Shown here piece after piece: positions 469 to 12,397 of a stretch of 42,327 nucleotides of DNA (its first letter is position 1; each line of letters begins with the position of its first letter). Under the pieces are notes generated by a model. The model ran no database searches. It worked only from the letters and a program-made list of their open reading frames with translations, and was not told the origin of the DNA. Location of the stretch: positions 1-42,327 of the IMG/VR virus record IMGVR_UViG_3300031952_000040; one strand, written 5' to 3'. The DNA comes from a virus. The translations under genes and the position numbers were made by a program.

Positions 469-1197
469 ATGAAAGAACTCGAAGCTGCGTTGAACGAAGA
501 GTTGGCGAAGGTGCTGGGCGCAAGGCACAACTGGATGGGCGTGATTGCCGGGGTTGCCAGTAGCCGAGCCAGTGAGTTTGCCCGGACGAAGAATGGTTTG
601 CTGGAAGAGGTTGTGACTGACGTGACTAGCGACATCATTCTTCAGGCGAAGGAAGGGGCGTTTGCTGGTGCTGTGATTCGTGCCAAGGAAGCGTCGAAGA
701 CGGATGCCGAACTGGTGGAGAACTTACGGCACGTCGTTATGAAGGCAGCGTTCTACCGGGTGAGTGATGCCATGAGGTTTCGCTATGGTGGCGGCGTCAC
801 TCAGTTCAGCCAGAAAGAAAACGGCTTCGCTGAGACTGTGCAAGCCCGCCCGGATACCGATGCCGATGCCGACTTATCCGAGTACAAGGATTTGTTGGTG
901 AAAGAGTTGGAAGTGATGGCGACTGCCGCCGACTGGCAGTGGGATCACACCGGGAACCCAAGTCATCTTGGGTTGGCGAAGCGGTTACGGAAGTCCAAGG
1001 AAATGGTGTCGGATCGTGTCGATGGGATGGTGATGAAGGATTTGAAGGCGAAGTATGGTGGAAGTAAGGTTCTGATCCAAGATCACATTGACGACATTCG
1101 GAAGTCGCTTTCCCGTGTCGCAAAACGGTTGGGTGACGAGACGTTGATCGCCGGGGTTGCAAGGGGATCGAAGTGGGGAAGTAAGGTGGTTTATTAG
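469..1197 (+). CDS. Possible sigma-like / HTH DNA-binding protein (242 aa)
   Basis: Start ATG 469 follows GGAG at 459-462, 28 nt after a repeat; the TAG stop begins the next repeat. Residues about 45-110 (DVTSDIILQA, then a segment ending in VSDAMRFR) loosely recall sigma region 2. Residues about 165-200 (LAKRLRKSKEMVSDRV) have the spacing of a sigma region 4 or other HTH. If correct it could direct RNA polymerase to phage promoters, possibly the repeats around it. The resemblance was judged by eye and there is a roughly 40-residue C-terminal extension, so a generic HTH protein is equally possible. Confidence 0.35.
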   Translation: MKELEAALNEELAKVLGARHNWMGVIAGVASSRASEFARTKNGLLEEVVTDVTSDIILQAKEGAFAGAVIRAKEASKTDAELVENLRHVVMKAAFYRVSDAMRFRYGGGVTQFSQKENGFAETVQARPDTDADADLSEYKDLLVKELEVMATAADWQWDHTGNPSHLGLAKRLRKSKEMVSDRVDGMVMKDLKAKYGGSKVLIQDHIDDIRKSLSRVAKRLGDETLIAGVARGSKWGSKVVY

Positions 1198-1254
1198 GTC
1201 CAGTGTACCCTAGTGGGTGTAACAGCCCACTGGAACTTTGCGAGGAAGTGAATC

Positions 1255-1578
1255 ATGCGACTGAGATATGACTATTCAACAAAGATGTGCCGTGACCGAT
1301 TCGCAAGGATCGAGAAACTCGGCAAGATCAAGTTGGTGCGGGGCTATCGCTACTTTGGCCGGTACAACACGAGCCATGAAGCGGTGCTAGTTGTCGGAGA
1401 GAACGGCACTGCACGCTTCGGCGGGTTGTTGTGGGGTTATGGTGGCGAAGGGCCAAGGGGATTACAGGAACTATTGTTGAAGCTCAACGTGCCAACGGCA
1501 CAAGCTGAAGCGATTGCCTTCTCAACACCCCGGAAGAATGAGATCGGTGAAGACTGGCGGCTAGTGCTGCCAAACTAG
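1255..1578 (+). CDS. Hypothetical protein (107 aa)
   Basis: ATG 1255 lies behind a GAGGAAG SD, 35 nt after a repeat; the stop TAG opens the next repeat. The N-terminal half is basic and aromatic. The C-terminal half contains GYGGEGPRGLQELL, a Gly-Pro pattern seen in several small phage proteins of unknown function. No membrane segment or catalytic motif is visible. Confidence 0.65.
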   Translation: MRLRYDYSTKMCRDRFARIEKLGKIKLVRGYRYFGRYNTSHEAVLVVGENGTARFGGLLWGYGGEGPRGLQELLLKLNVPTAQAEAIAFSTPRKNEIGEDWRLVLPN

Positions 1579-1640
1579 GTCCAGTGTACCCTAGTGGGTG
1601 TGCTGGTGAGTGTTTCAAAACCCTGTTTCGGAGAGATCGA

Positions 1641-1907
1641 ATGAGCAAGTCAAGTGAAGTTGTGGTTGTTGGTCGTGGCCGTCCTGAGCAGTACAGTGCC
1701 GGTTTCATCCGTGCCTTCAAGGTGATCGTGCGTCGGCACGGGTTGTTGAAGGGCCGGGAAGTCCTTAACGCCGAAGGCGTGACGGTTGGCGGCAAGCATC
1801 GGGACGTGAGCATTAGCTTGCCGACTCTGAGCAAGTACGTCAAACGTGATGAAGTCGGCGGAAAAAGCGTCGAACTGAAGCGTGGTCGTCCTATCAAAGC
1901 AGCGTGA
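1641..1907 (+). CDS. AT-hook-like small DNA-binding protein (88 aa)
   Basis: ATG 1641 follows GGAGAGATC. The protein is basic and has two RGRP motifs, near the N-terminus (VGRGRPEQ) and near the C-terminus (LKRGRPIKAA); RGRP is the core of the AT-hook minor-groove binding motif. Between them SLPTLSKYVKR resembles an HTH recognition helix. A DNA-binding or nucleoid-type regulator is a reasonable inference. Unlike most neighbours it ends in TGA and is followed by a GC-rich hairpin rather than directly by a repeat. Confidence 0.5.
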   Translation: MSKSSEVVVVGRGRPEQYSAGFIRAFKVIVRRHGLLKGREVLNAEGVTVGGKHRDVSISLPTLSKYVKRDEVGGKSVELKRGRPIKAA

Positions 1908-1926
1908 CCCTTGGGAGTTTTCTGCG

Positions 1927-1948
1927 GGGCAGGGAATTGTCCCTGCCC
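1927..1948 (+). terminator. GC-rich hairpin, possible attenuator
   Basis: A 9-bp perfect stem (1927-1935 with 1940-1948, loop ATTG) lies 20 nt after the gene ending at 1907. No T-run follows, so it is not a classical intrinsic terminator; mRNA 3'-end protection or weak termination is possible. Nothing else is seen between here and the repeat at 2015. Confidence 0.45.
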
Positions 1949-2070
1949 TATAGGGTGCTTGGCCTAGCCGAGCAATAGCGATACCCAAATGAGAATCCCT
2001 GGGCGGCTTTTAGGTCTAGTGTACCCTAGAGGGTGTTGACCACAACATCCTTGAATGCGAGGAAAAAATC

Positions 2071-2904
2071 ATGAGTGGATTTGCAGTCGGAACGAATGTT
2101 GGCCCGGCTGGTATTCGTCGCCTCTCTTATGAGGAAGGGCTGGCGAAGCTGAAGGGCAAAGAAAAGAAGCCGTTGGAAAACAACACTTATCTGGTGAAGG
2201 TGGACGACAAGACGCTGGGCGTGAAACTTCACGATACCATCGTCGTCTACATCTTCAAGAGTGGGGTGTACCAACTGGACACGGGCGGTTGGCGTTCTGT
2301 GACCACAAAGGACCGCATCAACCGATATGGTCCAGCACGGGTGAATCAGAAAAACAACATCTGGTACATCGGGGACGGCATCTTTGAGGATGGCGTCCGG
2401 GTCAATGCTGAAGGCAAGGTGTTGACGCCGCAACGTGGGGTGAAGGAAGTCGAGGCGAAGAAACGCAAGCTGGACCGCATGGTGTTGAAATACATCAAGG
2501 GGTTCGGGGAGCATGTGATTCGCAACGGGTTGCAAGTGGATAAAGCTGACAAGCCCACTGAGCAATCGCCGTGGAAGGTTGTGGAGTTAGTTGAAGGCCC
2601 CAAGCCTATTGCTCCGGGGCCGGGAGACTGCTGGGCGTGTTACTTCGGCATCACGTCCGATGATCCACTGAAAGAGCCACTAGGGGTCGAGCATCTGCTA
2701 CAACACATGCTCGAAGACGATGGGCCATATTTCGTCCCCAGCTTACTCTGGAAGGCGATTGTGGTGGGTGGCTATCAAAACCCCGGCTTCATCTGGCATC
2801 ACATTGCCAGCGATGCCCGGCGTGGCGAGAGTCAGTTCCTAAGTCGTGTTCTGACTGCCTACTTCCGAAAGCGGAAACCGGCACTGTTAGACTTGATGGA
2901 ATAA
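2071..2904 (+). CDS. Conserved phage protein of unknown function (277 aa)
   Basis: ATG 2071 follows a GCGAGGAAA leader, 35 nt after a repeat. Residues about 38-95 carry a pattern common in unrelated phages: NNTYLV, VKLHDTIVV, then LDTGGWRSVTTKDRINRY. This beta-rich domain has no known function. The C-terminal half (DCWACYFGITSDD, then HLLQHMLEDDGPYFV) is a second, probably separate domain. It is the largest gene of the array and is followed by a strong hairpin. Confidence 0.75.
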   Translation: MSGFAVGTNVGPAGIRRLSYEEGLAKLKGKEKKPLENNTYLVKVDDKTLGVKLHDTIVVYIFKSGVYQLDTGGWRSVTTKDRINRYGPARVNQKNNIWYIGDGIFEDGVRVNAEGKVLTPQRGVKEVEAKKRKLDRMVLKYIKGFGEHVIRNGLQVDKADKPTEQSPWKVVELVEGPKPIAPGPGDCWACYFGITSDDPLKEPLGVEHLLQHMLEDDGPYFVPSLLWKAIVVGGYQNPGFIWHHIASDARRGESQFLSRVLTAYFRKRKPALLDLME

Positions 2905-2910
2905 AAAACG

Positions 2911-2944
2911 GAACCCGGCGATGAACCAAAACATCGCCGGGTTC
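2911..2944 (+). terminator. Intrinsic-terminator-like hairpin
   Basis: A perfect 13-bp stem (2911-2923 with 2932-2944, loop of 8) starts 7 nt after the stop at 2904 and is followed by TCTTGGTTT, a weak T-tract. Unlike the other terminators of the array it is not followed by a repeat copy. Confidence 0.7.
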
Positions 2945-2978
2945 TCTTGGTTTACAACTTGTGAAAGGCTGGTGGAAA

Positions 2979-3278
2979 ATGAACGCTGTTGGATTGAAGA
3001 ACTTTACTGAACAGGTGTTAAACTCGCCTGAACCCGTGCTGGTTGACTTCTGGGCAAACTACTGCGCTCCATGCGTGGCGTTGAAACCGATCTTGAAAGA
3101 AGTGGCTGCGACGGGGGCCAAGGTTGTGACGGTGGATATAACCGAGGAACCCGAAATTGCTGCCCACTATGGCATCACTGCAATTCCTACTTTGATCGTC
3201 TTCAAGGGCGGGGAAGCAGGACAGCGGGTTGTCGGGTTGAGGAAGAAGGACGAACTTCTGCAACTCATCAGTGCCTAA
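2979..3278 (+). CDS. trxA: Thioredoxin (99 aa)
   Basis: A complete thioredoxin fold of normal length. The active site is WANYCAPC (residues about 27-34, CAPC instead of the usual CGPC), preceded by VLVDFWA, and the cis-proline loop is AIPT. It would reduce disulfides in the cytoplasm, for example for ribonucleotide reductase; some phages also use thioredoxin as a polymerase processivity factor, which cannot be judged here. The ATG at 2979 has SD GGTGGA; a GTG six codons upstream is less likely. No repeat copy precedes it, which is unusual here. Confidence 0.9.
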   Translation: MNAVGLKNFTEQVLNSPEPVLVDFWANYCAPCVALKPILKEVAATGAKVVTVDITEEPEIAAHYGITAIPTLIVFKGGEAGQRVVGLRKKDELLQLISA

Positions 3279-3284
3279 CCGTGT

Positions 3285-3300
3285 GCCGCCTTCGGGCGGC
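3285..3300 (+). terminator. TTCG-tetraloop hairpin behind thioredoxin
   Basis: A GCCGCC/GGCGGC stem closed by a TTCG tetraloop begins 7 nt after the thioredoxin stop. There is no T-run; the next repeat starts at 3314. An mRNA-stabilising or weak termination hairpin. Confidence 0.5.
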
Positions 3301-3358
3301 TCACCTTGCGAGGTCCAGTGTACCCTACCGGGTGTTCCAAGAACGAAGAGGAGATACA

Positions 3359-3961
3359 ATGAATGCGATTGCACGCCGCCCCGGAAGTCTTGATCCCCGA
3401 ACCCGTGTTCGTCACGGCAAAGAACGTGAACGGCAGATTGCTGTTGCATTGAAAGATCAGGTGGGCCTGCCCATCGCTGATGCGACTGAGTACGAAGACA
3501 AAGAACGAAAGGTTGACCGTTGGATCGCCTATCCTTCGGGCCGAGTTGCGCTTCAGATCAAATACCGAGAAGTCGGCGAAGACCTTCTGTTTGAGGTCTA
3601 CGACAAGTTCTTCGGTTGGAATGATCCGAAGAACAAGCTGGGCCGGGATATGTTTGGCGATGCTAAGGAATACGCCGTGCTGCTGGCTGATCGCCATACG
3701 GTTGTGATGGTTCCGACGCAGCTTGCCAAGGATACCGTTATCAAGATGACAGAGAAGGCACGACAAGAAGGTTTCACGCATGGTGCGGTGAGTTCGACTC
3801 TCCGCTACTATGCCCACGGATTGAAGCTGGAATTGAAGGTCCAGCGTGATCCCGGCGACGGACGCAAGAAGATGGTGGCATACATCCCCGCCAGCTACTT
3901 CGTGGCCGAGGCTCAAGCCAAGGTTTACCAAGTGGCACTGCCCAAAAAGTGGAAATTGTAG
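3359..3961 (+). CDS. Putative PD-(D/E)XK-type nuclease (200 aa)
   Basis: ATG 3359 follows GAGGAGA. After a basic start (HGKERERQIAVAL) comes ATEYEDKERKVDRWI, a short loop, then VALQIKYRE. The D...QxK spacing in two beta strands after an N-terminal helix is the PD-(D/E)XK arrangement, with Gln in the variable position. A Holliday-junction, restriction-like or recombination nuclease is possible. The assignment rests on motif and predicted fold only. The stop TAG is immediately followed by the next repeat. Confidence 0.5.
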   Translation: MNAIARRPGSLDPRTRVRHGKERERQIAVALKDQVGLPIADATEYEDKERKVDRWIAYPSGRVALQIKYREVGEDLLFEVYDKFFGWNDPKNKLGRDMFGDAKEYAVLLADRHTVVMVPTQLAKDTVIKMTEKARQEGFTHGAVSSTLRYYAHGLKLELKVQRDPGDGRKKMVAYIPASYFVAEAQAKVYQVALPKKWKL

Positions 3962-4014
3962 CTCCAGTGTACCCTATGGGGTGTGAAGACAACATTGCAC
4001 CCCATAGGGAGATC

Positions 4015-4239
4015 ATGATGAGCATTGAACGACAACTTGTGAAGGGAGTAACGACCACCGATGTTGCCGAGGTTGTCAAGGTTGATGAGTGCATTCGCTA
4101 CATTGACTCTTGCGGCTGGCGATTGAAGCAACGTGCAAGGGGCTATTACTACTTTCGCAACGAAGACGCCAATGAAGGTCAGCGAGACATGACTTTTTCC
4201 TTGGCAGAACTTCGGGATGCGTACCACAATGGGTGGTGA
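4015..4239 (+). CDS. Hypothetical protein (74 aa)
   Basis: Start ATG 4015 (or the adjacent ATG 4018) follows AGGGAG. The leader is unusual: repeat bases 3973-3983 form a perfect 11-bp inverted repeat with 3998-4008, ending at the SD. The middle reads SCGWRLKQRARGYYYFR, resembling small RNA- or DNA-binding folds, but no family is recognised. Confidence 0.6.
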   Translation: MMSIERQLVKGVTTTDVAEVVKVDECIRYIDSCGWRLKQRARGYYYFRNEDANEGQRDMTFSLAELRDAYHNGW

Positions 4240-4357
4240 AGTCAAAATAAGTCACAACTATTGGTGGAATAACGCAGTGTATTACAGGCGTTCCATCTGC
4301 GGCGGCAATGTTCAGGTCTGGAATGGTCGAATATGGACTGATGCTGTCGAGTCCTGA
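4229..4357 (+). CDS. Possible small protein (42 aa)
   Basis: ATG 4229 overlaps the end of the preceding gene by 11 nt in another frame and runs to TGA 4355-4357. It is rich in Trp, Tyr and Asn (NYWWNNAVYYRR, then VQVWNGRIWTDAVES), a plausible compact beta protein. The SD is weak, so expression would rely on coupling to the upstream gene. Confidence 0.35.
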   Translation: MGGEVKISHNYWWNNAVYYRRSICGGNVQVWNGRIWTDAVES

Positions 4358-4435
4358 CTTATACTGACTATTGCATACCCTTCTCCATAGGGAGTATGGG
4401 GAAGAAAGTCAGGTCTATTGTACCCTAGCCGGTGT

Positions 4436-4735
4436 AATCGCAAATTACAACACCCTGCACGGGTGGAACGCCGAGAGCCACAGGAGTAAGCACAGAAAGC
4501 ATCCTCGCTGCGAAAACAATCGAGGATCGACCCGGAATAAGCCGGTCAGACAGAGTGTGAAGGCAAGAGGGTAAGCCCCTCCCACAATAAATCACTCTGA
4601 ATCAGTGTGGCCACACTGAGTCTGATCGGACGAAGAAGGGCAGTGCCGAAACGACTGGACGGGCGAAAGTCAGTCACTTGCTGTTGCATAGTGCATCGAA
4701 GACCGAAGGGGACGCCCTTCGGTTTTTCTTTTTTC
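4436..4735 (+). ncRNA. Structured non-coding RNA candidate 1
   Basis: About 300 nt without a convincing ORF, between a TCTATTG-type repeat (4414) and an intrinsic terminator. Visible stems: GGTGTAAT with ATTACAACACC just after the repeat; a perfect 7-bp stem 4501-4507/4521-4527; GAGGG/CCCTC at 4567-4581; a 16-nt perfect palindrome at 4603-4618. The arrangement of repeat, structured RNA and terminator supports an independent transcript. It is not recognisable as 6S, tmRNA or RNase P RNA. Confidence 0.5.
4703..4735 (+). terminator. Intrinsic terminator of ncRNA candidate 1
   Basis: A perfect 8-bp stem (CCGAAGGG with CCCTTCGG, loop GACG, 4703-4722) is followed by TTTTTCTTTTTTC. The next TCTATTG-type repeat begins at 4748. 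Confidence 0.9.
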
Positions 4736-4791
4736 ATTTTGTTTAGGTCTATTGTACCCTAGCTGGCACAACCCTAACGAAAGGCAATGCG

Positions 4792-4983
4792 ATGAACGAA
4801 CAAGAATGGCTGGTAGTATTCAAAGCTGAGTTCCTGAAGAGGACTGCCATCACTTGGAACGAAGGGGCCGGGCAAGAAGACAGCGATGCCATCGAACGCT
4901 ACTTCCCTGAAGAAGTGAAGGATGCAGTGAGTCATTACATCGAGAAATACGACTTGGACGACGTGACCCAACTGTGGGGATAG
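4792..4983 (+). CDS. Small acidic hypothetical protein (63 aa)
   Basis: ATG 4792 lies behind CGAAAGGCAATGCG. It is the first gene after a terminator and a TCTATTG-type repeat. The protein is acidic and helical (EDSDAIERYFPEEVKDAVSHYIEKY), with a WG at the C-terminus; the stop TAG opens the next repeat. No family recognised. Confidence 0.65.
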   Translation: MNEQEWLVVFKAEFLKRTAITWNEGAGQEDSDAIERYFPEEVKDAVSHYIEKYDLDDVTQLWG

Positions 4984-5096
4984 GTCCAGTGTACCCTATT
5001 GGGTGTAACAGCGTAACCGTGACATTCCGATCATCCTGTCCACCGGCATAGAGAGTCGGGTCGATTACATTCTTTTCTTTTTTAGGAGAACCTGCG

Positions 5097-5288
5097 GTGA
5101 AGAAAAAATACCTTATTGCCCTGCCTTCTTTCCCTAATGCCTTCAATGACCACTACGACTACGATTCCAAGGGATTCAATCATCGAACCGTTCTTGTCAG
5201 TGCGACCGACAAGAACGATGCCGCCAGCCTTGCCCGGCATCTGCGTCCGGGCGAAAACATTGGCGACATCAAAGAAGTGAACTACTAG
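5097..5288 (+). CDS. Hypothetical protein with AFNDHYDYD segment (63 aa)
   Basis: A GTG start at 5097 behind TAGGAGAACC. The upstream leader (5007-5096) is about twice the usual length. Residues about 14-22 (AFNDHYDYD) are encoded by a 28-nt stretch identical to one in the gene at 12398-12631, where it sits at the other end of an otherwise different protein. The rest (TVLVSATDKNDAASLARHL) looks like a small alpha/beta protein. Confidence 0.6.
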   Translation: MKKKYLIALPSFPNAFNDHYDYDSKGFNHRTVLVSATDKNDAASLARHLRPGENIGDIKEVNY

Positions 5289-5345
5289 GTCCAGTGTACC
5301 CTAGACGGTGTAACGATCACTCAACCCCCTGCGAAAGAAACGACA

Positions 5346-5825
5346 ATGGACAACCTCACGAAACTTGCGATTTCCAAGGCTCTGGAAAAGGACACGAAGG
5401 AGTTCAAGGCAACTCCCGGTGTTCACAACATCGACACCACGATCACCTTGCGAGTTAAAGGCACGGTGAAGAAGGGTGAGGATTCGGATTACACGCCGAC
5501 CGTGGACATTCCGCTTCTGCCGACCTTGGCCCTCGTCATGGAGAAGGCTGGCTTCATGCGGGAACTGGCAAAGAAATTGCTGGTCGAAGCAATGACCGAA
5601 GCCCTCGAACTCAGTGCCAAGGGCGAAGAGTTGGTTGCCGACCGTGTGAAGAACATCGACGAAGCGATGGCGCACGTTCGGGAAGTCACCAAGGCTCTGC
5701 CGAAGAAGACCAAGAGCGGCGCAACGAGCGTCAAGGTGACGGTCGAAGAAGTCGCTCCGGTCGAAGAAGTGATTGACTTCGTTCGGTTCCCTGTTCGGTT
5801 CCCTGTCGATGCCGGTGTCCTGTAG
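5346..5825 (+). CDS. Hypothetical protein (159 aa)
   Basis: ATG 5346 follows the array's recurrent leader (AACCCCCTGCGAAAG). The N-terminal half is beta-like (TTITLRVKGTVKKGEDSDY), followed by a long helical segment with many Glu, Lys and Ala. Near the C-terminus FPVRFPV comes from a 12-nt tandem duplication, GTTCGGTTCCCT twice. No family recognised. Confidence 0.7.
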   Translation: MDNLTKLAISKALEKDTKEFKATPGVHNIDTTITLRVKGTVKKGEDSDYTPTVDIPLLPTLALVMEKAGFMRELAKKLLVEAMTEALELSAKGEELVADRVKNIDEAMAHVREVTKALPKKTKSGATSVKVTVEEVAPVEEVIDFVRFPVRFPVDAGVL

Positions 5826-5836
5826 GTCCAGTGTAC

Positions 5837-5862
5837 CCTAGTGGGTGTAACAACCCACTAGG
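5837..5862 (+). promoter_or_regulatory. Leader hairpin formed by the repeat's 3' half
   Basis: The last part of the repeat (CCTAGTGGGT, 5837-5846) pairs perfectly with ACCCACTAGG (5853-5862), followed by CTTTT. A transcript reading through the repeat could fold a 10-bp stem, giving a possible attenuator. Comparable pairings occur at 3973-4008 and, less perfectly, near 1211-1228. Confidence 0.5.
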
Positions 5863-5880
5863 CTTTTGCGAGAGAACAAA

Positions 5881-5934
5881 ATGAAAAATGCGACCATCCC
5901 GCATCGAAGTCAACGCCTGTACCCGCCCAAATAG
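5881..5934 (+). pseudogene. Chimeric remnant of the gene at 12750-12938 (17 aa)
   Basis: A 17-residue frame ends in YPPK and TAG, then continues as sequence nearly identical to the end and downstream region of the gene at 12750. The duplicated part starts at 5909 inside the frame. The N-terminal codons are unrelated, so this looks like a gene truncated by recombination that brought in the 3' end of a paralogous cassette. Confidence 0.5.
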
Positions 5935-6008
5935 TCAACGAAAGGCAACACTAGGGTACGTCCAGTGTACCCTAGTGGGTGTTGAGATCAATCATCTTCA
6001 CTCAAGGA
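5909..6008 (+). repeat. 100-bp duplication, copy A
   Basis: It matches 12909-13012 almost perfectly apart from one small indel region near the left end. It includes the last codons of a gene, an inverted half-repeat (CACTAGGGTAC), the direct repeat and the next leader. The inverted and direct parts form an 11-bp palindrome around GTCCAGT. Confidence 0.85.
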
Positions 6009-6022
6009 ATAAGGAAAGAACA

Positions 6023-6289
6023 ATGGCACGGCCTCAAGCATACGACCCGCAAGAGGGTTACAAGTACCAAATCCTGACCCGCAATCCAGCGTATGGCCGG
6101 GCATGGGAGCAGTGCGACTATGCGAAGGACAAGGAAGAGAAAAACCACTTGCTTGGCGAGTATCGCATGGCCTACGGTGCCGGGTGGGAATTCAAGGTCA
6201 TCACGTTGCCCGTCAAGTATTGGCCGAAGAGGTCCAGTGTACCCTTGATGGTGTCGCACATTGTGTGCGCCACTTTTTCGAATCTCTGA
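6023..6289 (+). CDS. Hypothetical protein reading through a repeat (88 aa)
   Basis: ATG 6023 follows AAGGAAAG. The first 72 residues (MARPQAYDPQEGYKYQ onward) look like a normal small protein, with QEGYKYQILTRNPAYGRAWE. The usual TAG before the repeat at 6233 is AGG here, so translation continues through the repeat, adding RSSVPLMVSH and about ten more residues. The extension has no coding character and probably arose by stop loss. Confidence 0.6.
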   Translation: MARPQAYDPQEGYKYQILTRNPAYGRAWEQCDYAKDKEEKNHLLGEYRMAYGAGWEFKVITLPVKYWPKRSSVPLMVSHIVCATFSNL

Positions 6290-6303
6290 ATTAGGAATAC
6301 GCA

Positions 6304-6465
6304 ATGACAATCGAAATCGACAAATCGTGCGGACAGGGTCACTACTGGGTCGCCTGCTCACCACCCGCTGACATCCTGATCGAGATCGAGTGCGAGATGA
6401 TTGATGGTGGCAAGACCCACTGCTCTGATTTTCTTGCCTCCAATGGACAGCATTATCGCTGGTGA
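6304..6465 (+). CDS. Small hypothetical protein (53 aa)
   Basis: ATG 6304 follows TTAGGAATACGCA. It contains four Cys and several His (KSCGQGHYWVACS, IECEMIDGGKTHCSD), compatible with a small metal-binding fold, though the spacing does not match a standard zinc ribbon. The repeat at 6233 lies upstream, and the stop precedes the structured region at 6478. Confidence 0.55.
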   Translation: MTIEIDKSCGQGHYWVACSPPADILIEIECEMIDGGKTHCSDFLASNGQHYRW

Positions 6466-6477
6466 TCGTCCGGATCA

Positions 6478-6619
6478 ATTCAGGTCTGTGAGCAGCGGGG
6501 CAACTGGCAGGGAGGCATCCTGTCAGCCTGAATCGAGCGATGGTAAGGGCCAGCGAGGGGGCTGGACATTCGACTGTATTAGGTTCCAGCCCTGATGCGA
6601 CCGAATGCCCCTCGTTGGC
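6478..6619 (+). ncRNA. Structured RNA candidate 3 with pseudoknot
   Basis: Non-coding and highly self-complementary. Domain 1: stem 6478-6484/6527-6533 encloses hairpin 6504-6511/6519-6526. Domain 2: 12-bp outer stem 6549-6560/6608-6619 encloses stem A (GCTGGA 6561-6566 with TCCAGC 6585-6590) and stem B (CATTCG 6567-6572 with CGAATG 6602-6607). A and B cross, giving an H-type pseudoknot. Two pairs are G-U on this strand and would be A-C on the other, so a + transcript is favoured. Its promoter and family are unknown. Confidence 0.55.
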
Positions 6620-6637
6620 ACCTGCCTGCATTCAAAT

Positions 6638-6653
6638 CTAGGGTACAATAGAC
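6638..6653 (-). promoter_or_regulatory. Inverted TCTATTG-type repeat copy
   Basis: CTAGGGTACAATAGAC is the reverse complement of the repeat core. It lies 6 nt from the + copy at 6660, forming a divergent pair. If the repeat is a promoter, this one would transcribe leftward, antisense to the structured region 6478-6619. Confidence 0.75.
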
Positions 6654-6679
6654 CTTACGTCTATTGTACCCTAGTGGGT

Positions 6680-6853
6680 ATGAAAAACATCAAAGACAAA
6701 CTGGAAAGACTGTTGGACGACTTCCGTGAGTGGAAAAGCATCTACGGAAGTCAAGTTCCAGCAGGATACGCTGAACCAAAAGATCGGGCAAACGAACGCA
6801 AAAAGTTCATTGCCGACATTGCTAAACTGAGAGAACAATACTCAATGTTTTGA
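6680..6853 (+). CDS. Small helical protein with nearly leaderless start (57 aa)
   Basis: The ATG at 6680 lies inside the 3' end of the repeat (CCCTAGTGGGT then ATG), with no room for a normal leader. The protein is charged and helical (KDKLERLLDDFREWKSIYG, then RANERKKFIADIAKLREQ), a likely short coiled coil. No family recognised. Confidence 0.6.
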   Translation: MKNIKDKLERLLDDFREWKSIYGSQVPAGYAEPKDRANERKKFIADIAKLREQYSMF

Positions 6854-6856
6854 GTT

Positions 6857-6869
6857 ACCTAGTGGGTGT
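6857..6869 (+). repeat. Half repeat lacking the conserved 5' core
   Basis: ACCTAGTGGGTGT is present but the usual TCCAGTGTACC before it is replaced by unrelated sequence. It overlaps the region just after the stop at 6853. If the core is the promoter, the gene at 6902 depends on the promoter at 6660. Confidence 0.6.
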
Positions 6870-6901
6870 TACGAACAACCTTCAACCCCTGCGAGAAAAA
6901 A

Positions 6902-7288
6902 ATGTCTGCAACAATTGATATTTCTGAGCTTGGTCATTTCACTGGCAGCGAACGATGGTTCCGTCACTGGACTGGTGCCGTTCACTTCACCGAAGGCGTC
7001 CACTACCTTGTGGAACATGGGGCGGCATGGCTGGTCGATGCAATCGCATCGCACCAAACAGGCAAGCTGCTCAAAGGCGATCTGAGAGAGTTTCAGATTT
7101 GGACTCTTGAAGCCAAGGGGCAGAAGGCCGTCCTGACGTGCAAGGCCGACAGCGACCGCAAGCCTGCGGTAACTCAAAACATTGAGTTTACCGACTTCCC
7201 TGATGGCACTGTGACGCTGTACCTTGAATTGGGAAGCATCGACGGCATCAATGAACATCGTGTTCTCATGCTGACGAGCGAACGCTAG
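6902..7288 (+). CDS. DUF6876-like protein (128 aa)
   Basis: ATG 6902 follows the array leader CCCCTGCGAGA. The order FTGSERWFRHW, TEGVHYLVEHGAAWLVDAIASHQ, FQIWTLEAKGQKAVLTC, IEFTDFPDGTVTLYLELG matches DUF6876, widespread in phages and mobile elements and of unknown function. Length is close to the usual for the family. Stop TAG opens the next repeat. Confidence 0.7.
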   Translation: MSATIDISELGHFTGSERWFRHWTGAVHFTEGVHYLVEHGAAWLVDAIASHQTGKLLKGDLREFQIWTLEAKGQKAVLTCKADSDRKPAVTQNIEFTDFPDGTVTLYLELGSIDGINEHRVLMLTSER

Positions 7289-7341
7289 GTCCAGTGTACC
7301 CTAGTGTGTGTAACAACCACTCAACCCTGCGAGACAACGAA

Positions 7342-7710
7342 ATGACCCTGCGAGCCACTGTCGAGATTAGCAGAAAAACCCGTCAAACAATGATGGGTCC
7401 AATGCCAAGTGTGCATTCGGTTGAATACCGATTGAGCATCAACCCCTTCAGGTTACTGCATCGGCATGACTTGCCTGCGTCCCATGAGCTTGAAGATTGG
7501 GAAACTGAGGACGACGTGTGGTTCCGCAAGGACGGCCAAATCTACAACGTCAATGAGTTTTGCAAGATTGGGATGCCACTCATCCCCGGCCCGCATGGTG
7601 GCGCACAAATGGCTTCAAATGGCTACTTTGCCATCGCTGCCTTTGAAGGCAAGGTTTACGGGGTTTCGATTCAAGAGTCGAAGACCTACGGACACGACGA
7701 ACTGAAATAG
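7342..7710 (+). CDS. Hypothetical protein (122 aa)
   Basis: ATG 7342 lies behind the recurrent leader AACCCTGCGAGACAACGAA, identical to the one before 8410. The sequence has aromatic and acidic segments (DWETEDDVWFRKDGQIYNV) and a Gly-rich loop (IPGPHGGAQM). No motif recognised. The stop TAG lies just before the repeat at 7712. Confidence 0.65.
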   Translation: MTLRATVEISRKTRQTMMGPMPSVHSVEYRLSINPFRLLHRHDLPASHELEDWETEDDVWFRKDGQIYNVNEFCKIGMPLIPGPHGGAQMASNGYFAIAAFEGKVYGVSIQESKTYGHDELK

Positions 7711-7745
7711 CTCCAGTGTACCCTAGTGGGTAAGGAGATCAAACC

Positions 7746-8039
7746 ATGCTGACAACTGCGGAACGAATTGAACAAGCGACAGCTTACGGCGTAGGCACCA
7801 AAGCCTATGTTGACACCTTCGGTGGAATGGTCGCTTGTGTAGTCACGGAAATTCACAAGCCGAACGCCAATGGCATTGTCATTGGCCACGACGAATTGAC
7901 CGTGCGAATTGAAGAAACCCGTGGGGGATATACGAAGGGCGAGATCGTCACACGGTCAGCCGCATACACTCCCCCACTAAAGCATCGTATCCTTCGAGGA
8001 TACCACTACCGAATCAACACGGCGTACAAGTACGTCTAG
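7746..8039 (+). CDS. Hypothetical beta-rich protein (97 aa)
   Basis: ATG 7746 follows TAAGGAGATC directly behind a repeat whose GTGT tail is replaced by the SD. The pattern of strands and turns (DTFGGMVACVVTEI, DELTVRIEETRGGYTKGEIV) suggests a small SH3- or KOW-like barrel; this is inference. Its stop TAG lies inside the conserved core of the next repeat (GTC TAG TGTACCC). Confidence 0.65.
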   Translation: MLTTAERIEQATAYGVGTKAYVDTFGGMVACVVTEIHKPNANGIVIGHDELTVRIEETRGGYTKGEIVTRSAAYTPPLKHRILRGYHYRINTAYKYV

Positions 8040-8049
8040 TGTACCCTAC

Positions 8050-8172
8050 ATGGCAACACGCTATGGCTGCTCAAGTGGTGTTGCAGCATTGCTTGAGCAT
8101 AACAACGAGGGTGTACCCTATCGAGAAACGTGTCGTTGCCAACCATTGGAGATTGCACATGGAAGTTTTTGA
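8050..8172 (+). CDS. Possible near-leaderless small protein (40 aa)
   Basis: ATG 8050 immediately follows the repeat core (TGTACCCTAC then ATG), the same geometry as the genes at 6680 and 9862. The product has three Cys (YGCSSGVAALLEHNNEG, then ETCRCQP). It overlaps the next start (8159) in another frame. Geometry is the main support. Confidence 0.4.
   Translation: MATRYGCSSGVAALLEHNNEGVPYRETCRCQPLEIAHGSF
8107..8121 (+). repeat. Degenerate repeat core within 8050-8172
   Basis: GGGTGTACCCTATCG keeps TGTACCCTA but not the flanks. It lies about 40 nt before the ATG at 8159, where a promoter copy would be expected. Confidence 0.35.
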
Positions 8173-8344
8173 ATTCAGAGTCTTTGGAATCACAACAAAA
8201 ATAGAGACGCCAAATATGCGTGTCGTTTTCTGGATTCTGAAATCCTTGGCTGCATCTGGCGAAGCGATCCAAGTCTTGCGTGAGGGTCATTGGATTGATC
8301 TCGAAATCGCAAAGGTAGAAACAAAAAAGAAAAGAGCGGCTTAA
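8159..8344 (+). CDS. Small basic hypothetical protein (61 aa)
   Basis: ATG 8159 has a GGAG SD at 8148-8151. The product is strand-rich (MEVFEFRVFGITTKI, NMRVVFWILKSLAASGEA) with a Lys-rich tail (KVETKKKRAA). Longer in-frame starts inside or near the repeat (8063) are possible but lack an SD. No family recognised. Confidence 0.55.
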   Translation: MEVFEFRVFGITTKIETPNMRVVFWILKSLAASGEAIQVLREGHWIDLEIAKVETKKKRAA

Positions 8345-8409
8345 AAACAATTTAGGTCCAGTGTACCCTAGTGTGTGTAACAACCACTCAACCCTGCGAG
8401 ACAACGATC

Positions 8410-8775
8410 ATGGCCGACTTGAAAGAACAGATTGCTGAGTTTGTGAAGGCCGCTGACGAAGTGTCTGCCGCTTATTGGGAGCGACAGAAATTCACCTTCG
8501 CCAAGCCGACACAACACCGTGCCGACTTCATCAGCGACAAATGGGTGCGTGTCGTGTCTCTGGACGTGCCGCACGAAGGCCCGCCAGTCGTTTCTTCGGT
8601 CTATGCCTTCATTGCCCTGCAAGACGGCCACACGAAGACGCTGGGAGCGATCAAGGCGGGTGACATTCACAAGCCTGCCGGGTTCAAGGCCCCTGCCAAG
8701 CACGCACGGGGCAACGTCTTCGAGGCTGACTTCCGCAAGGCCATCCAGCCAAACGGCATCGTTTACCTGAAGTAA
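8410..8775 (+). CDS. Conserved phage protein of unknown function (121 aa)
   Basis: ATG 8410 follows the leader AACCCTGCGAGACAACGATC. The C-terminal half (KTLGAIKAGDIHKPAGFKA, then PAKHARGNVFEADF and GIVYLK) is a pattern I associate with a common phage and plasmid family without assigned function. It is basic near the end, so nucleic acid binding is possible. A double hairpin follows the stop. Confidence 0.7.
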   Translation: MADLKEQIAEFVKAADEVSAAYWERQKFTFAKPTQHRADFISDKWVRVVSLDVPHEGPPVVSSVYAFIALQDGHTKTLGAIKAGDIHKPAGFKAPAKHARGNVFEADFRKAIQPNGIVYLK

Positions 8776-8780
8776 TACAA

Positions 8781-8841
8781 CGCAGACTAGGCCAGTCTGC
8801 GGGGGAGCCAACGAGCGGCTATGCCAAGCAGGAAACTCCCC
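8781..8841 (+). ncRNA. Double-hairpin 3' UTR element
   Basis: A perfect 7-bp hairpin GCAGACT/AGTCTGC (8781-8799) is followed by a GGGGAG...CTCCCC stem. No T-run and no ORF. It lies between the stop at 8775 and the repeat at 8854; an mRNA-end structure is likely. Confidence 0.4.
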
Positions 8842-8908
8842 TGAAATCACAGGTCCAGTGTACCCTAGTGGGTGTAACGAACAACCTTCCTCAACACGGA
8901 GATTTGCG

Positions 8909-9139
8909 ATGGGTATCACTCTGGTTCCTTCCTACGGTCGTGACTACAAGAACGGCAAAGAAGTCCAAGCGGCCTGGGACGCTGGCAAGGACTTCACGAT
9001 TCAGTCCTTCGGCCACCCGGACGATGGGCGGCAGATCAACAAGCAGGACGCCGAACGTGAAGGCGGCACCTTCAACATCCGGTACAAGAAACTGACCCAG
9101 ATCAAGGTCATCAAGGTCAAGAAGGTCGCTGCGGCTTAG
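8909..9139 (+). CDS. Small conserved phage protein (76 aa)
   Basis: ATG 8909 follows CACGGAGATTTGCG. Sequence TLVPSYGRDYKNGKEV, then AWDAGKDFTIQSFG and GTFNIRYKKLTQ resembles a family of short phage proteins of unknown function, strand-rich and basic at the C-terminus (KVIKVKKVAAA). Stop TAG opens the repeat at 9141. Confidence 0.65.
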   Translation: MGITLVPSYGRDYKNGKEVQAAWDAGKDFTIQSFGHPDDGRQINKQDAEREGGTFNIRYKKLTQIKVIKVKKVAAA

Positions 9140-9162
9140 GTCCAGTGTACCCTATACAGTGT

Positions 9163-9417
9163 AACGCCTCCCAAACAACGGCCTTGGGCAAGCCAATCAA
9201 TCAGAATAAAGGAACCCCTTCCAATGAATGTCTGAAGTCCGCTAACTCCCCGGCGTAGTCATCCACGTTAGAGCGGGGCGGGACTGCAAAGCGATGGCCG
9301 CACGTCAGCAATGGGCAGCATTGTGCTGGCTGACGTGTGAATGAAGTGCCTCCCAAACATTGGCCTTGGGCAAGCCGAAAGCAAATGCGTGGGGCAGGAC
9401 AACCTGCCCTTTTTTTG
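9163..9417 (+). ncRNA. Structured non-coding RNA candidate 2
   Basis: About 250 nt with no ORF between a repeat (9141) and a strong terminator. A 29-nt direct repeat with two mismatches flanks the body (9166-9194 and 9348-9376). Stems inside: AGTCC/GGACT (9236-9240/9281-9285) with CCCCG/CGGGG (9248-9252/9274-9278); a 9-bp stem 9301-9309/9329-9337 topped by CAGCA/TGCTG. Repeat, structured body and terminator together suggest a dedicated RNA gene of unknown class. Confidence 0.55.
9392..9417 (+). terminator. Intrinsic terminator of ncRNA candidate 2
   Basis: GGGCAGG (9392-9398), loop ACAA, CCTGCCC (9403-9409), then eight T-rich bases. A TCTATTG-type repeat follows at 9434. Confidence 0.9.
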
Positions 9418-9471
9418 TTTTTGTTTGCGTAGGTCTATTGTACCCTAGTGGGTGTAACAAGCGAACAACAT

Positions 9472-9609
9472 GGCGGCGTAGCTCAACTGGCTAGAGCAAC
9501 CATCATTATCGTAGCGATTGATCGGGGGTCCACGGTCAATGCGGCCAACGTGTGTACAGCGTTGGTTTGAGAGGATGGGAAGACGGGGGTTCGATGCCCT
9601 CCGCTGTCT
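9472..9609 (+). tRNA. tRNA-like gene with about 70 nt in place of the anticodon loop
   Basis: The ends are convincing: acceptor 9472-9478 pairs with 9602-9608 (two G-U), T8, a D arm with stem GCTC/GAGC and loop AACTGGCTA, and a T arm with stem GGGGG/CCCTC and loop TTCGATG. Between the arms CCATC (9500-9504) pairs with GATGG (9574-9578), but 69 nt lie inside instead of 7. The insert has its own hairpins (ATTGATC/GGTCAAT and CCAACG/CGTTGG). No CCA is encoded. The anticodon cannot be assigned. It could be an intron-bearing tRNA, a tRNA-derived RNA or a decayed tRNA. Confidence 0.5.
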
Positions 9610-9610
9610 G

Positions 9611-9687
9611 CTTACACTGTAGGGCATTTGCCCGAACAACGAGGCGTCAGAACACGCCTACAACCCCGCAAGGGGAGAGTGTGTAAG
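9611..9687 (+). ncRNA. Cloverleaf-like RNA beside the tRNA
   Basis: A 7-bp outer stem (CTTACAC 9611-9617 with GTGTAAG 9681-9687) encloses three hairpins: GGGC-ATTT-GCCC, AGGCGT-CAGAAC-ACGCCT and CCCC-GCAA-GGGG. The four-way layout mimics a tRNA but lacks the TTCGA loop and a normal D loop. It starts two nt after the tRNA-like gene, presumably on the same transcript from the repeat at 9434. Confidence 0.45.
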
Positions 9688-9724
9688 GTAGCCGTAGTGT
9701 ACCCTATGAAGCAGGAGAACAACA

Positions 9725-9856
9725 ATGCGAAAAACTGAAGGGGCAACCAAAGCCCACGCCTCTGTCGGGTATCACAAACACCTTCGACCATTCGGCAAGC
9801 GACTGGCAAACAAAGCCACTCGCAAGAATGGCAAACGTAGCACCAGTGTACCCTAG
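9725..9856 (+). CDS. Small basic protein ending in repeat-encoded residues (43 aa)
   Basis: ATG 9725 follows GCAGGAGAAC behind a variant repeat (CGTAGTGTACCCTATG). The protein is strongly basic (HKHLRPFGKRLANKATRKNGKR), suggesting nucleic acid binding. Its final STSVP and the TAG are encoded by the next repeat itself. Confidence 0.55.
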   Translation: MRKTEGATKAHASVGYHKHLRPFGKRLANKATRKNGKRSTSVP

Positions 9857-9861
9857 TGGGT

Positions 9862-10284
9862 ATGAGACACAGAACACAATTGCAATACTTGGAGGATCGA
9901 GCCGTGTTTGACCATGATATTGGCGAAATACGCAACACGAAGTCGATGGACATGCGGCCCGAAAGCCCTGCGGAATATGTCGAGATGGACAATATCACCA
10001 CTGGCCCCAATGGTATGCAATTGCTGCCAGTGTTCAGCGGTGAAATGTTTCAAAAGTCCGTTGCCTATCCCGTCATCGTGGAAGGATGGGACAAGAAGAG
10101 CGCAGGACGCCACAAACGCCGATGGGAAGCAACATTCACCCAAGCCGAACGGAACAAAATCAGCCGGTATTATGGCCTGTTTTACAAGTGGTATCTGGTC
10201 AGCGGCACGCCCAAACGTGTGTCACTGCAATTGAACACCTTGACCCTCCTGCAAAGGGCAGTGAACTTCTTCGCTGAATGCTAG
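9862..10284 (+). CDS. Hypothetical protein, near-leaderless start (140 aa)
   Basis: ATG 9862 lies at the end of the repeat (CCCTAGTGGGT then ATG), so the mRNA leader would be very short if transcription begins in the repeat. The protein has an acidic N-terminal half and a basic, aromatic C-terminal half (KKSAGRHKRRWEA, ISRYYGLFYKWYLVSG). No family recognised; stop TAG opens the repeat at 10286. Confidence 0.65.
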   Translation: MRHRTQLQYLEDRAVFDHDIGEIRNTKSMDMRPESPAEYVEMDNITTGPNGMQLLPVFSGEMFQKSVAYPVIVEGWDKKSAGRHKRRWEATFTQAERNKISRYYGLFYKWYLVSGTPKRVSLQLNTLTLLQRAVNFFAEC

Positions 10285-10305
10285 GTCCAGTGTACCCTAG
10301 AGGGC

Positions 10306-10599
10306 ATGATGAAAGACGCATACGGAAACGATCAAGTATTTCTGGTCCAGCCAACAACTCTGGACTATGAGATCAGCTATGGTGGCGATGGTGTCAAAAC
10401 ATGCCAAGAGGGACGCTATCGACACTATTTCACCGCCAGTGCTGGCGGCTTGTCGGGCAGCATTAGAATTCAATTGAACCGAGTCAGCGCCGAACGGTTT
10501 GCTGCCTATAACGGCCTGCAATTGATAACCGACGTTGAACGTGAAGAAATTCAAGAAAGGTGGAGCGTCAGAGTGCCGGATTGGTCTAGTGTACCCTAG
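10306..10599 (+). CDS. Hypothetical protein ending in the next repeat (97 aa)
   Basis: ATG 10306 (or adjacent 10309) sits just behind the repeat, again nearly leaderless. The middle (ISYGGDGVKTCQEG, FTASAGGLSGSIRI) looks beta-rich. The last five residues WSSVP and the TAG are read from the repeat at 10585. No family recognised. Confidence 0.6.
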   Translation: MMKDAYGNDQVFLVQPTTLDYEISYGGDGVKTCQEGRYRHYFTASAGGLSGSIRIQLNRVSAERFAAYNGLQLITDVEREEIQERWSVRVPDWSSVP

Positions 10600-10636
10600 A
10601 CGGTGTAACGATCACTCAACCCTGCGGAGAATGACA

Positions 10637-10888
10637 ATGATTCAATTGAAAGTCGTGGCTGTGTCGAGCAACCACAATGCGTTCGGCCTGCGAAACATGA
10701 TCCTCATCGGGGACAATGGCGAAGGCTGGCAAGCTGCGGCCAATGACCTGAACGTGAAGCCGAAGGATACCATCCTGCGGATACCCGAAGGGCAGGATAT
10801 TCCCACGTTCCTGACGCTGCAATCCTTTGAGATTCCGTCACAACTCGAAGACCCGCCTGCTAAACTATTGAAAGAAGTTTGGGGCTAG
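10637..10888 (+). CDS. Hypothetical protein (83 aa)
   Basis: ATG 10637 has SD GGAG with 7-nt spacing; ATG 10631 would overlap the SD. The protein begins MIQLKVVAVSSNHNAFGLR and contains a plausible beta-barrel pattern (NMILIGDNGEGWQA). It follows the array leader motif ACTCAACCCTGCG. No family recognised. Confidence 0.6.
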   Translation: MIQLKVVAVSSNHNAFGLRNMILIGDNGEGWQAAANDLNVKPKDTILRIPEGQDIPTFLTLQSFEIPSQLEDPPAKLLKEVWG

Positions 10889-10946
10889 GTCCAGTGTACC
10901 CTAGAGGGTGTAAGGAACACTTCAGTCCTCTGCGAAAGGCAATGCG

Positions 10947-11282
10947 ATGTTGAGCCACAAAATTGCGATTTACATTCCTTCCACTGTCAACGGCAATCAA
11001 CCCGCCCCGGTTGATATGATCGAACGGTGGGTGCGGGCCAGCAAGATCAAGCTGGCCAACCTGTTTGGTGGGTTTACGACCTACAACGGGCAAGGGGGAT
11101 GGTATTCGCCCGAACACGGCTTGATCGAAGAGAACGTGATTATCGTTCAAGCGTTCACCGATCAAGAGGGGCTGACCAAACTGGACAAAGTGAACGAACT
11201 GGCGAAGGAAATCGCCAGCGACATGGGCCAGGAAATGGTGTCTGTCGAAGTCGATGGAACACTCAACTTCGTGACAGCGTAA
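10947..11282 (+). CDS. Hypothetical protein (111 aa)
   Basis: ATG 10947 follows CGAAAGGCAATGCG. The sequence (KIAIYIPSTVNGNQPA, FGGFTTYNGQGGWYSPEHGLIEENVIIVQAFTD) resembles a family of about 110-residue bacterial and phage proteins predicted to adopt a ferredoxin-like fold, with unknown role. The gene ends its transcription unit. Confidence 0.65.
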   Translation: MLSHKIAIYIPSTVNGNQPAPVDMIERWVRASKIKLANLFGGFTTYNGQGGWYSPEHGLIEENVIIVQAFTDQEGLTKLDKVNELAKEIASDMGQEMVSVEVDGTLNFVTA

Positions 11283-11288
11283 GGCAGG

Positions 11289-11316
11289 GACGGGCAGCAA
11301 TGCCCGTCTTTTTTTT
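11289..11316 (+). terminator. Intrinsic terminator
   Basis: GACGGGC (11289-11295), loop AGCAAT, GCCCGTC (11302-11308), then eight T. A T-rich spacer (GTTTATGTTTAGG) leads straight to a TCTATTG-type repeat at 11330. Confidence 0.92.
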
Positions 11317-11381
11317 GTTTATGTTTAGGTCTATTGTACCCTAGTGGGTGTGAAGGACAAACACCTATGCGAGACAAAGCT

Positions 11382-11540
11382 ATGACCCGAACTGCAATCA
11401 TGAAATTGCCTGCATGGAAACGCCGTAGGTTTCCATATAAGCCTCGTCCGGGGGCTGTAGAGGTTCAACCAGTCAATTGGTTGGATCATTTGCAGGATGT
11501 TCTATCTGGACTAAAGGTCAAAGCCGACAACTACCGATAG
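11382..11540 (+). CDS. Small basic hypothetical protein (52 aa)
   Basis: ATG 11382 is preceded by GCGAGACAAAGCT, the position of the SD-like leader in other cassettes; ATG 11367 is an alternative. Sequence LPAWKRRRFPYKPRPGAVEV is strongly basic and Pro-rich, followed by a helical tail. Stop TAG opens the next repeat. Confidence 0.5.
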   Translation: MTRTAIMKLPAWKRRRFPYKPRPGAVEVQPVNWLDHLQDVLSGLKVKADNYR

Positions 11541-11594
11541 GTCCAGTGTACCCTAGTGGGTGTAAGGAACACTTCACCCCCTGCGAGATAAGCT

Positions 11595-11780
11595 ATGCCG
11601 AAGAAAATGGATCATGCCGCCTACCAACGTGGCCTGCGGTCGAAGTCGCCTGCTGAACTGAACTTCATTGCGAATGACGCCAACGAAGCCTCCACGGTCA
11701 ACCCGCAAGGCGAAAACGCTGGATACTATGCCGACGAAGTGCATTATGCACTCGCCGAACTCAAACGCCGCCAAGGATGA
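11595..11780 (+). CDS. Small hypothetical protein (61 aa)
   Basis: ATG 11595 follows CCCCCTGCGAGATAAGCT. The product (MDHAAYQRGLRSKSPAELNFIANDANEA, then GYYADEVHYALAELKRR) is mostly helical and resembles short phage proteins of unknown function. It is followed after 4 nt by a lipoprotein gene, the only clear two-gene unit without an intervening repeat in this part. Confidence 0.65.
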   Translation: MPKKMDHAAYQRGLRSKSPAELNFIANDANEASTVNPQGENAGYYADEVHYALAELKRRQG

Positions 11781-11784
11781 AAAC

Positions 11785-11973
11785 ATGAAGCTGGCAATCA
11801 TAGCGGTCGCATTCCTCCTGTTCGGAGGATGCGCCGCTCCAAGACAATGGGAAAGCCCCCGTGAGCATTGTGAAGCTCCCCGTGAGCATTACCACCGGGA
11901 ACTAAGCGTCGAAATTCGGGAGAATGGCGATGGCCGTACCCAAGTCGTCGCTACGTTCAAAATCACCAACTAG
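11785..11973 (+). CDS. Small lipoprotein (62 aa)
   Basis: A signal peptide MKLAIIAVAFLLFGGC ends in a lipobox (LFGGC), so the mature protein would be lipid-anchored at Cys16. The short mature part contains an imperfect repeat (SPREHC, APREHY) and a strand-like C-terminus. Phage lipoproteins often block receptors or superinfection, or act in lysis; which applies here is unknown. The SD is weak and translation may be coupled to the gene 4 nt upstream. Confidence 0.7.
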   Translation: MKLAIIAVAFLLFGGCAAPRQWESPREHCEAPREHYHRELSVEIRENGDGRTQVVATFKITN

Positions 11974-11997
11974 GTCCAGTGTACCCTATAAGGTGTG

Positions 11998-12057
11998 GTA
12001 AGTTTGGGCGTGGGGGCCGGGTGAAATATCCCGGCCCCTGCAAGCCCAATCTCACAA
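11998..12057 (+). promoter_or_regulatory. 60-nt two-tier hairpin leader element, copy 1
   Basis: Identical over 60 nt to 13853-13912. TTGGGC/GCCCAA encloses a 9-bp GGGGCCGGG/CCCGGCCCC stem with loop TGAAATAT. It sits between a repeat and the SD of the following gene, so it is a 5' UTR structure, perhaps a protein- or ligand-binding element. Confidence 0.8.
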
Positions 12058-12083
12058 GGACACCAACAAAAAGGAGACAAACC

Positions 12084-12269
12084 ATGTACGCAACGACCGC
12101 ACGAAAGGACAACCAGAAAACAACAATCGTTCTGCCACCTCTTCCACCGTGGGAAGTGGCGAAGGGACACCAACAACACCGTGGCGGGGCAGGCACACAC
12201 GCCGACCGCCGCACGAACCGTCAGCGGACACGAGCAACCCAACAACGGGCTGCTCTGTCAGATGACTGA
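12084..12269 (+). CDS. Small basic conserved phage protein (61 aa)
   Basis: ATG 12084 has a strong AAGGAG SD and lies 26 nt behind the duplicated hairpin element. The C-terminal half (HRGGAGTHADRRTNRQRTR) is Arg-rich and resembles a short protein common in phages and mobile elements, function unknown. RNA or DNA binding is likely from charge. Confidence 0.6.
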   Translation: MYATTARKDNQKTTIVLPPLPPWEVAKGHQQHRGGAGTHADRRTNRQRTRATQQRAALSDD

Positions 12270-12283
12270 AAGGCACCGGCAAG

Positions 12284-12343
12284 GTGCTGGCGGGCGAAAT
12301 CCCCCACGACATCGAAGGTGATGTCGTGGTCATCACCATTTAG
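12284..12343 (+). pseudogene. Probable C-terminal gene remnant (19 codons)
   Basis: An in-frame stretch reading LAGEIPHDIEGDVVVITI ends at a TAG directly before the repeat at 12345. It looks like the end of a real beta-rich protein but lacks an N-terminus; a GTG at 12284 is the only start. It may be the remains of a cassette lost by recombination. Confidence 0.35.
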
Positions 12344-12397
12344 CCCTAGTGTACCCTATAGGGTGTGATGGAACGAAACTTTCAACGGAGAACTGCG

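Follow-up and report, generated by a model that had tools for sequence, protein, structure and literature searches.

A conserved, pseudoknot-capable candidate RNA in the small-gene block of a jumbo phage

The locus and its genome setting

The window, i.e., the whole stretch of DNA that was analysed, is the complete IMG/VR record IMGVR_UViG_3300031952_000040 (42,327 bases) and represents part of a jumbo-phage genome. Synteny links it to the 276–317 kb region of the 340-kb record IMGVR_UViG_3300020172_001601 (G001). Among phage records, the nearest similar terminase is that of a 595-kb uncultured phage (42% identity). A further relative, the 46-kb record IMGVR_UViG_3300027976_002058 (G003), carries a terminase 76% identical to that of the window. 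The first 14.8 kb of the window contain small + strand genes, mostly unknown, and a repeat (GGTCCAGTGTACCCTAGTGGGTGT) stands in front of most of them. Two perfect duplications lie in this repeat block, one of 89 bases (5920–6008 and 12924–13012) and one of 60 bases (11998–12057 and 13853–13912), which are consistent with cassette shuffling via recombination between repeats. Elsewhere in the window, a tyrosyl/tryptophanyl-type tRNA synthetase gene and a tRNA nucleotidyltransferase-like gene are found at 25072–26172 and 30446–32047, respectively, although the window yielded no tRNA gene, and the ORF at 34494–35225 contains an in-frame 15-base tandem repeat (34650–34784) encoding a repeated NAPMQ peptide.

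Within the block of small genes, a 53-aa ORF (6304–6465, + strand) and a 57-aa ORF (6680–6853, + strand) flank a conserved core of 85 nt at 6542–6626, which is assigned to the + strand tentatively. A hairpin domain (6478–6533, + strand) precedes the core. Two repeat copies follow it, namely, an inverted one (6638–6653, − strand) that points leftward into the candidate RNA, and a forward one (6659–6674, + strand) that starts the next transcription unit. The immediate neighbours differ from phage to phage: the direct upstream ORFs encode 53, 76 and 23 aa in the window, G001 and G003, respectively, with other genes taking the place of the 53-aa ORF in the relatives, and the direct downstream ORFs encode 57, 53 and 66 aa and appear unrelated, the 57-aa ORF not being adjacent to the RNA in either relative. 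No defence-family match was found for the downstream genes of the window and G003. The gene that precedes the RNA in G001 has its homolog one gene further upstream in G003, showing that the element keeps its neighbourhood while the direct neighbours are swapped. As judged from sequence, this comparison shows a discrete non-coding unit that is retained while the flanking genes turn over.

The conserved core and its helices

The element occurs in a single copy in each of the 42-kb, 340-kb and 46-kb records, a covariance model giving one site in the 340 kb. In G001, it lies at 284,273–284,436 with 98% identity (98.8% in the core), and homology spans positions 6472–6693 of the window, ending on both sides where the neighbouring genes diverge. 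In G003, the core alone is kept (18,966–19,046, 80% identity), with a repeat copy and the 23-aa ORF upstream of it. The adjacent coding DNA of the window and G003 is about 70% identical (70.7% for a DUF6876 gene and 69% for the 57-aa gene), so the core is conserved better than the adjacent genes. The 5′ hairpin domain is present in the window and its closest relative only, outside the conserved core, and its fold is unremarkable (z = −1.4). An earlier note had described a candidate structured RNA of two domains at 6478–6619; a structured element is indeed present, but only the second domain is conserved, and the conserved unit runs from 6542 to 6626, its edges being the ends of the closing helix P1.

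No further homologs were found in phage and plasmid records by a DNA search, or in viral contigs by four RNA patterns and one repeat pattern. Among the matches listed for one RNA pattern in genome contigs, all were chance-like, and the covariance model, applied to 48 related large-phage records and 32 pattern hits, returned only the three known sites. One match, L011, was rejected as a chance 17-mer within an ATPase-like gene.

The absence of an ORF that explains the element, as previously noted from the sequence, was borne out by the homologs, in which the reading frames differ and the core lengths differ by 4 nt. A 34-codon frame common to the two closest phages was considered as coding potential and rejected, since indels break it in the third.

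The helices proposed in the earlier note were all located at the positions given there, the exception being the extent of the outer stem, which it had put at 12 bp. Those 12 bp, including one G–U pair, form the inner part of P1 (6549–6560 with 6608–6619), and two outer segments also pair (GGUA-a-GG at 6542–6548 with CCUGCC at 6621–6626), bringing P1 to 18 bp with one bulged A per strand. The 5′ strand of P1 (GGTA-a-GG-GCCAGCGAGGGG, 6542–6560, + strand) is invariant in all three phages except for one G of a GGGGG run, and the 3′ strand (CCCCTCGTTGGC-a-CCTGCC, 6608–6626, + strand) has two changes in the third phage, leading to G·G and A·A mismatches. Inside P1, two helices cross: S1, formed by GCTGGA (6561–6566) and its complement TCCAGC (6585–6590), and S2, formed by CATTCG (6567–6572) and CGAATG (6602–6607), all four strands being given for the + strand. 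The inner part of P1, S1 and S2 are all flush. The loops L2 (6573–6584, + strand) and L3 (6591–6601, + strand) are variable, the latter in both sequence and length.

Long stems as such are not rare in this DNA, as 18 stem registers of at least 12 bp with a 30–70-nt loop were counted in the window against an expected mean of 17.2. However, the + strand of the window has a single stem of at least 12 bp around a flush 6 + 6-bp Watson–Crick pseudoknot, and none of 300 first-order Markov windows has one (7 of 300 when G–U pairs are allowed), suggesting that the P1/S1/S2 arrangement is unlikely to be due to chance, even counting the search of the whole window. The core + strand has a folding energy of −47.7 kcal/mol with z = −5.2. 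Together with the homologs and the non-coding character of the element, the simulations upheld the description of the locus as a structured, pseudoknot-capable RNA.

A search for compensatory changes, suggested by the earlier note, found one in S2 of the sole diverged homolog. S2 reads CATCAA/TTGATG in G003 vs. CATTCG/CGAATG in the window, with all six pairs preserved; a gapless reading requires three double substitutions, and the probability of full pairing after three random substitutions per strand is 0.008. The change can also be aligned as a paired deletion with fewer independent events, i.e., with the MAFFT gaps (one slid over equal letters) as one base lost per strand plus one double substitution. 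An alignment shuffle control with the three homologs, two of which are nearly identical, was not significant, as 153 of 500 shuffles reached the observed score; covariation statistics would need more than three sequences. Both strands of S1 are unchanged while L2 and L3 vary, and this invariance would by itself neither prove nor disprove pairing. In addition, shuffling the 29-nt middle yields a 6-bp partner for GCTGGA (G–U allowed) in 12% of cases, which limits the weight of S1 taken alone. In our reading, P1 and S2 are well supported as real helices, and S1 is likely to be one.

The knot has a nested competitor. The minimum-energy fold returned by the folding tool combines S2 with an inner helix of TGTATTAGG and CCTGATGCG (6575–6583 with 6591–6599). 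Using a simple pseudoknot-penalty model, the interior of the window was calculated to have −16.0 kcal/mol in the nested form vs. −11.6 to −6.2 kcal/mol in the knotted form, and that of G003 −12.5 vs. −7.9 to −2.5 kcal/mol, where the spread of the knot energies reflects the choice of pseudoknot penalty. By this model, the nested rod is therefore predicted to be no less favourable in energy than the knot. The nested inner helix has four of its nine pairs mismatched and one further pair gapped in G003. An exchange between knot and nested rod is possible.

The flanking repeat and the transcribed strand

The repeat next to the element belongs to a 24-nt family (GGTCYAKTGTACCCTAGTGGGTGT) that precedes most small genes of one block in each record (76–14668 in the window, 265.2–293.0 kb in G001 and 1.5–27.1 kb in G003). 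Forward copies number 38, 59 and 59, respectively, with none elsewhere in the 340-kb genome. Copies of the TTGTACCC variant, to which the forward copy at 6659–6674 belongs, follow T-rich terminator tracts in 10 of 13 cases in G001, 8 of 12 in G003 and 4 of 7 in the window, in contrast to 2 of 46, 2 of 47 and 0 of 31 for the other variant (GTGTACCC). The repeat thus behaves in a promoter-like manner, suggesting that it is an unusual early promoter with a unit-start class. A search for a single-subunit RNA polymerase as its reader gave no match, but the control gave none either. Inverted copies are much rarer, i.e., six vs. about 156 forward copies in the three records: three adjoin the RNA, one in each phage (downstream of the core by 11 nt in the window and by a short distance in both relatives), two lie where the repeat block ends on the right, and the sixth is in G001 near another ORF-free stretch.

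At the right end of the repeat block (window 14651–14734), two facing repeat copies surround a terminator-like hairpin (AGTGCATGG...CCATGCACT), and the right-hand inverted copy there is conserved in the 340-kb relative. A stretch of about 250 bases at L015:5015–5330 (G001:267,915–268,230) has no convincing ORF and a strong fold, lies between two terminator-like hairpins and is followed by a divergent repeat pair, as at the element. It gave no Rfam match and no clear homolog, and may possibly be a second non-coding RNA.

The position of the element suggests a unit-end role as the next best reading after a small RNA that acts in trans (see below), even if an unlikely one in itself. Here, the structure would form the 3′ end of the upstream mRNA and serve as a terminator-like element or a block to 3′ exonucleases, where other units carry intrinsic terminators. 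In every phage, a small ORF lies 5′ of the RNA, and the forward repeat copy after the RNA is of the variant that elsewhere mostly follows terminator tracts. However, none of the three phages has a T-tract behind the structure, while ordinary terminators serve the other units, and a generic terminator would need neither the conserved sequence nor a single copy in a 340-kb genome. An intrinsic terminator proper was rejected, as the T-tract is missing past 6626 in every homolog and the site is absent from the terminator scan list.

Which strand is transcribed bears on a second alternative. On the + strand, P1 contains an invariant U·G pair and, in the window, also a G·U pair. The folding energies of the window, G001 and G003 are −47.7, −50.1 and −38.3 on the + strand vs. 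−33.4, −40.1 and −39.4 on the − strand, which in the model favours the + strand in the window and G001 but not in G003. If the repeat is promoter-like, its inverted copy would transcribe the − strand. We tentatively place the + strand over the − strand at roughly 60:40; the view of the earlier note that G–U pairs favour the + strand keeps its direction, with the energies leaning the same way, but is weak, given that the inverted repeat points the other way.

The opposite strand may accordingly be the functional RNA, made from the inverted repeat at 6638–6653, or may exert antisense control of the locus, which we rank just behind the unit-end role and consider improbable. The inverted copy lies near the core in all three phages, being the sole one in G003 and one of three in G001; its TTGTACCCT core is kept though its arms no longer pair perfectly as a hairpin, and the Watson–Crick pairs of S1 and S2 make the knot possible on either strand. 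On the other hand, the − strand folds worse in two of the three phages, the invariant U·G pair of P1 turns into A·C, inverted copies lack the GGGTGT found after forward copies, and the repeat itself is a putative promoter.

Known RNA families and the proposed role

An element acting at the DNA level without a stable RNA product, such as a replication origin or a protein-binding site that folds in its single-stranded form, would fit one copy per genome, a palindromic flank and conserved placement. Nevertheless, the GC skew of G001 shows no turn at the locus, there is no particular sign of DNA folding, and the better folding of the + strand as RNA would be left unexplained, all of which makes this reading rather remote. 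Least probable of all, and very improbable, is a riboswitch or leader that acts in cis as a sensor for the gene downstream. The element does lie 5′ of an ORF, and riboswitches are often compact pseudoknots, but each phage has a different downstream gene, a promoter-type repeat intervenes, the loops are variable, and no Rfam riboswitch matches. The small-molecule sensor envisaged in the earlier note is unlikely for the same reasons, L2 and L3 being the most variable parts; as for the exonuclease-resistant RNA that it also named, no ring-like fold is evident in the element. A regulatory RNA in the broad sense, the remaining role named there, may still apply.

The RNA was unfamiliar to the earlier note, and the family searches agree. 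With Rfam 15 at the gathering cut-off, no match was obtained in the window or in about 129 kb of the two relatives, and a permissive threshold around the site gave chance-level matches alone (E up to 10). A tRNA/tmRNA scan gave nothing bearing on the element, and a literature search on jumbo phage noncoding RNA with a pseudoknot returned nothing on point. Several specific candidates were rejected: a tRNA-like role, to which the tRNA synthetase- and CCA-enzyme-like genes had pointed (no T-arm and no CCA end); an AbiF-type RNA system (the relatives lack an Abi_2 gene); and, in L3, a CTGATG...GAA string reminiscent of a hammerhead (which the third phage lacks). The order of its strands (S1 5′, S2 5′, S1 3′, S2 3′) makes the element resemble P1/P2 of HDV-like ribozymes, but it contains no P1.1, P4 or conserved catalytic-C junction, and a long outer stem closes the whole; this candidate was rejected, as L2 and L3 are too short and variable for a nested double pseudoknot with P1.1 and a catalytic J4/2, and Rfam gave no HDV match.

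Among described systems, the antitoxin RNAs of type III toxin–antitoxin systems (ToxI, CptI) are small protein-binding RNA pseudoknots relevant to phage infection (PMC5086642; PMC5772629). The element is likewise predicted to be a small RNA pseudoknot, but unlike ToxI, which forms tandem repeats before a toxin gene, it is present in single copy with no constant neighbour gene and has an 18-bp closing stem. No tandem pseudoknot array was found in the 42-kb, 340-kb and 46-kb records, and no constant downstream gene is available as a toxin, the genes differing per phage. Phage small and antisense RNAs include the antisense RNAs of the large phage phiR1-37 (PMC12197685), with which the element shares its predicted nature as a non-coding RNA of a large phage; RNAs of that type are mostly antisense or base-pairing, whereas the element is intergenic and structured, with conserved helices. 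H-type pseudoknot riboswitches, e.g., the preQ1 classes (PMC11625349), have a similarly compact knot, but the element differs from them in its variable loops, its 18-bp closing stem, and the lack of a constant downstream gene and of an Rfam match. The element is thus a candidate new family of a known general kind, i.e., phage-encoded structured RNA, with three records so far, and as far as its sequence can tell it is probably a real structured RNA.

As to its role, we tentatively favour, with a probability of roughly 0.4, a free-standing, single-copy small structured RNA (6542–6626) that is made early and binds a protein in trans. Action in trans rather than in cis is suggested by the lack of a shared upstream or downstream gene and by the promoter-like repeat before the next gene, and a protein ligand rather than base-pairing or a metabolite by the conserved helices and variable loops; with the single copy and the location in an accessory block, a protein-binding trans RNA fits these features best. 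The RNA would come from the small accessory genes of this block early in infection, where it could form the 3′ end of a short + strand transcript or be transcribed from a leftward promoter-like repeat of its own. When folded, it would consist of the long P1 helix with an H-type pseudoknot at its tip, or of a nested rod in exchange with this knot. A host or phage protein may then read the conserved P1/S1 helices, with the RNA acting as its ligand or decoy. A bolder form of this small trans-acting RNA is more doubtful, namely, a new class of phage non-coding RNA. In it, one jumbo-phage lineage would keep a separate gene in its accessory block for a pseudoknot-capped rod that is present in single copy and has a divergent promoter to itself. 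The rod would target a host protein in trans (e.g., as a decoy for a defence or RNA-decay factor) and may alternate between the knot and the nested fold.

Few structured non-coding RNAs have been catalogued from giant phages, and the 85-nt element is a small target open to RNA–protein pull-down and probing. The flanking repeat offers a handle on the control of the accessory-gene block in these phages, and the retention of the element amid exchanged small genes suggests that it has a useful job of its own.
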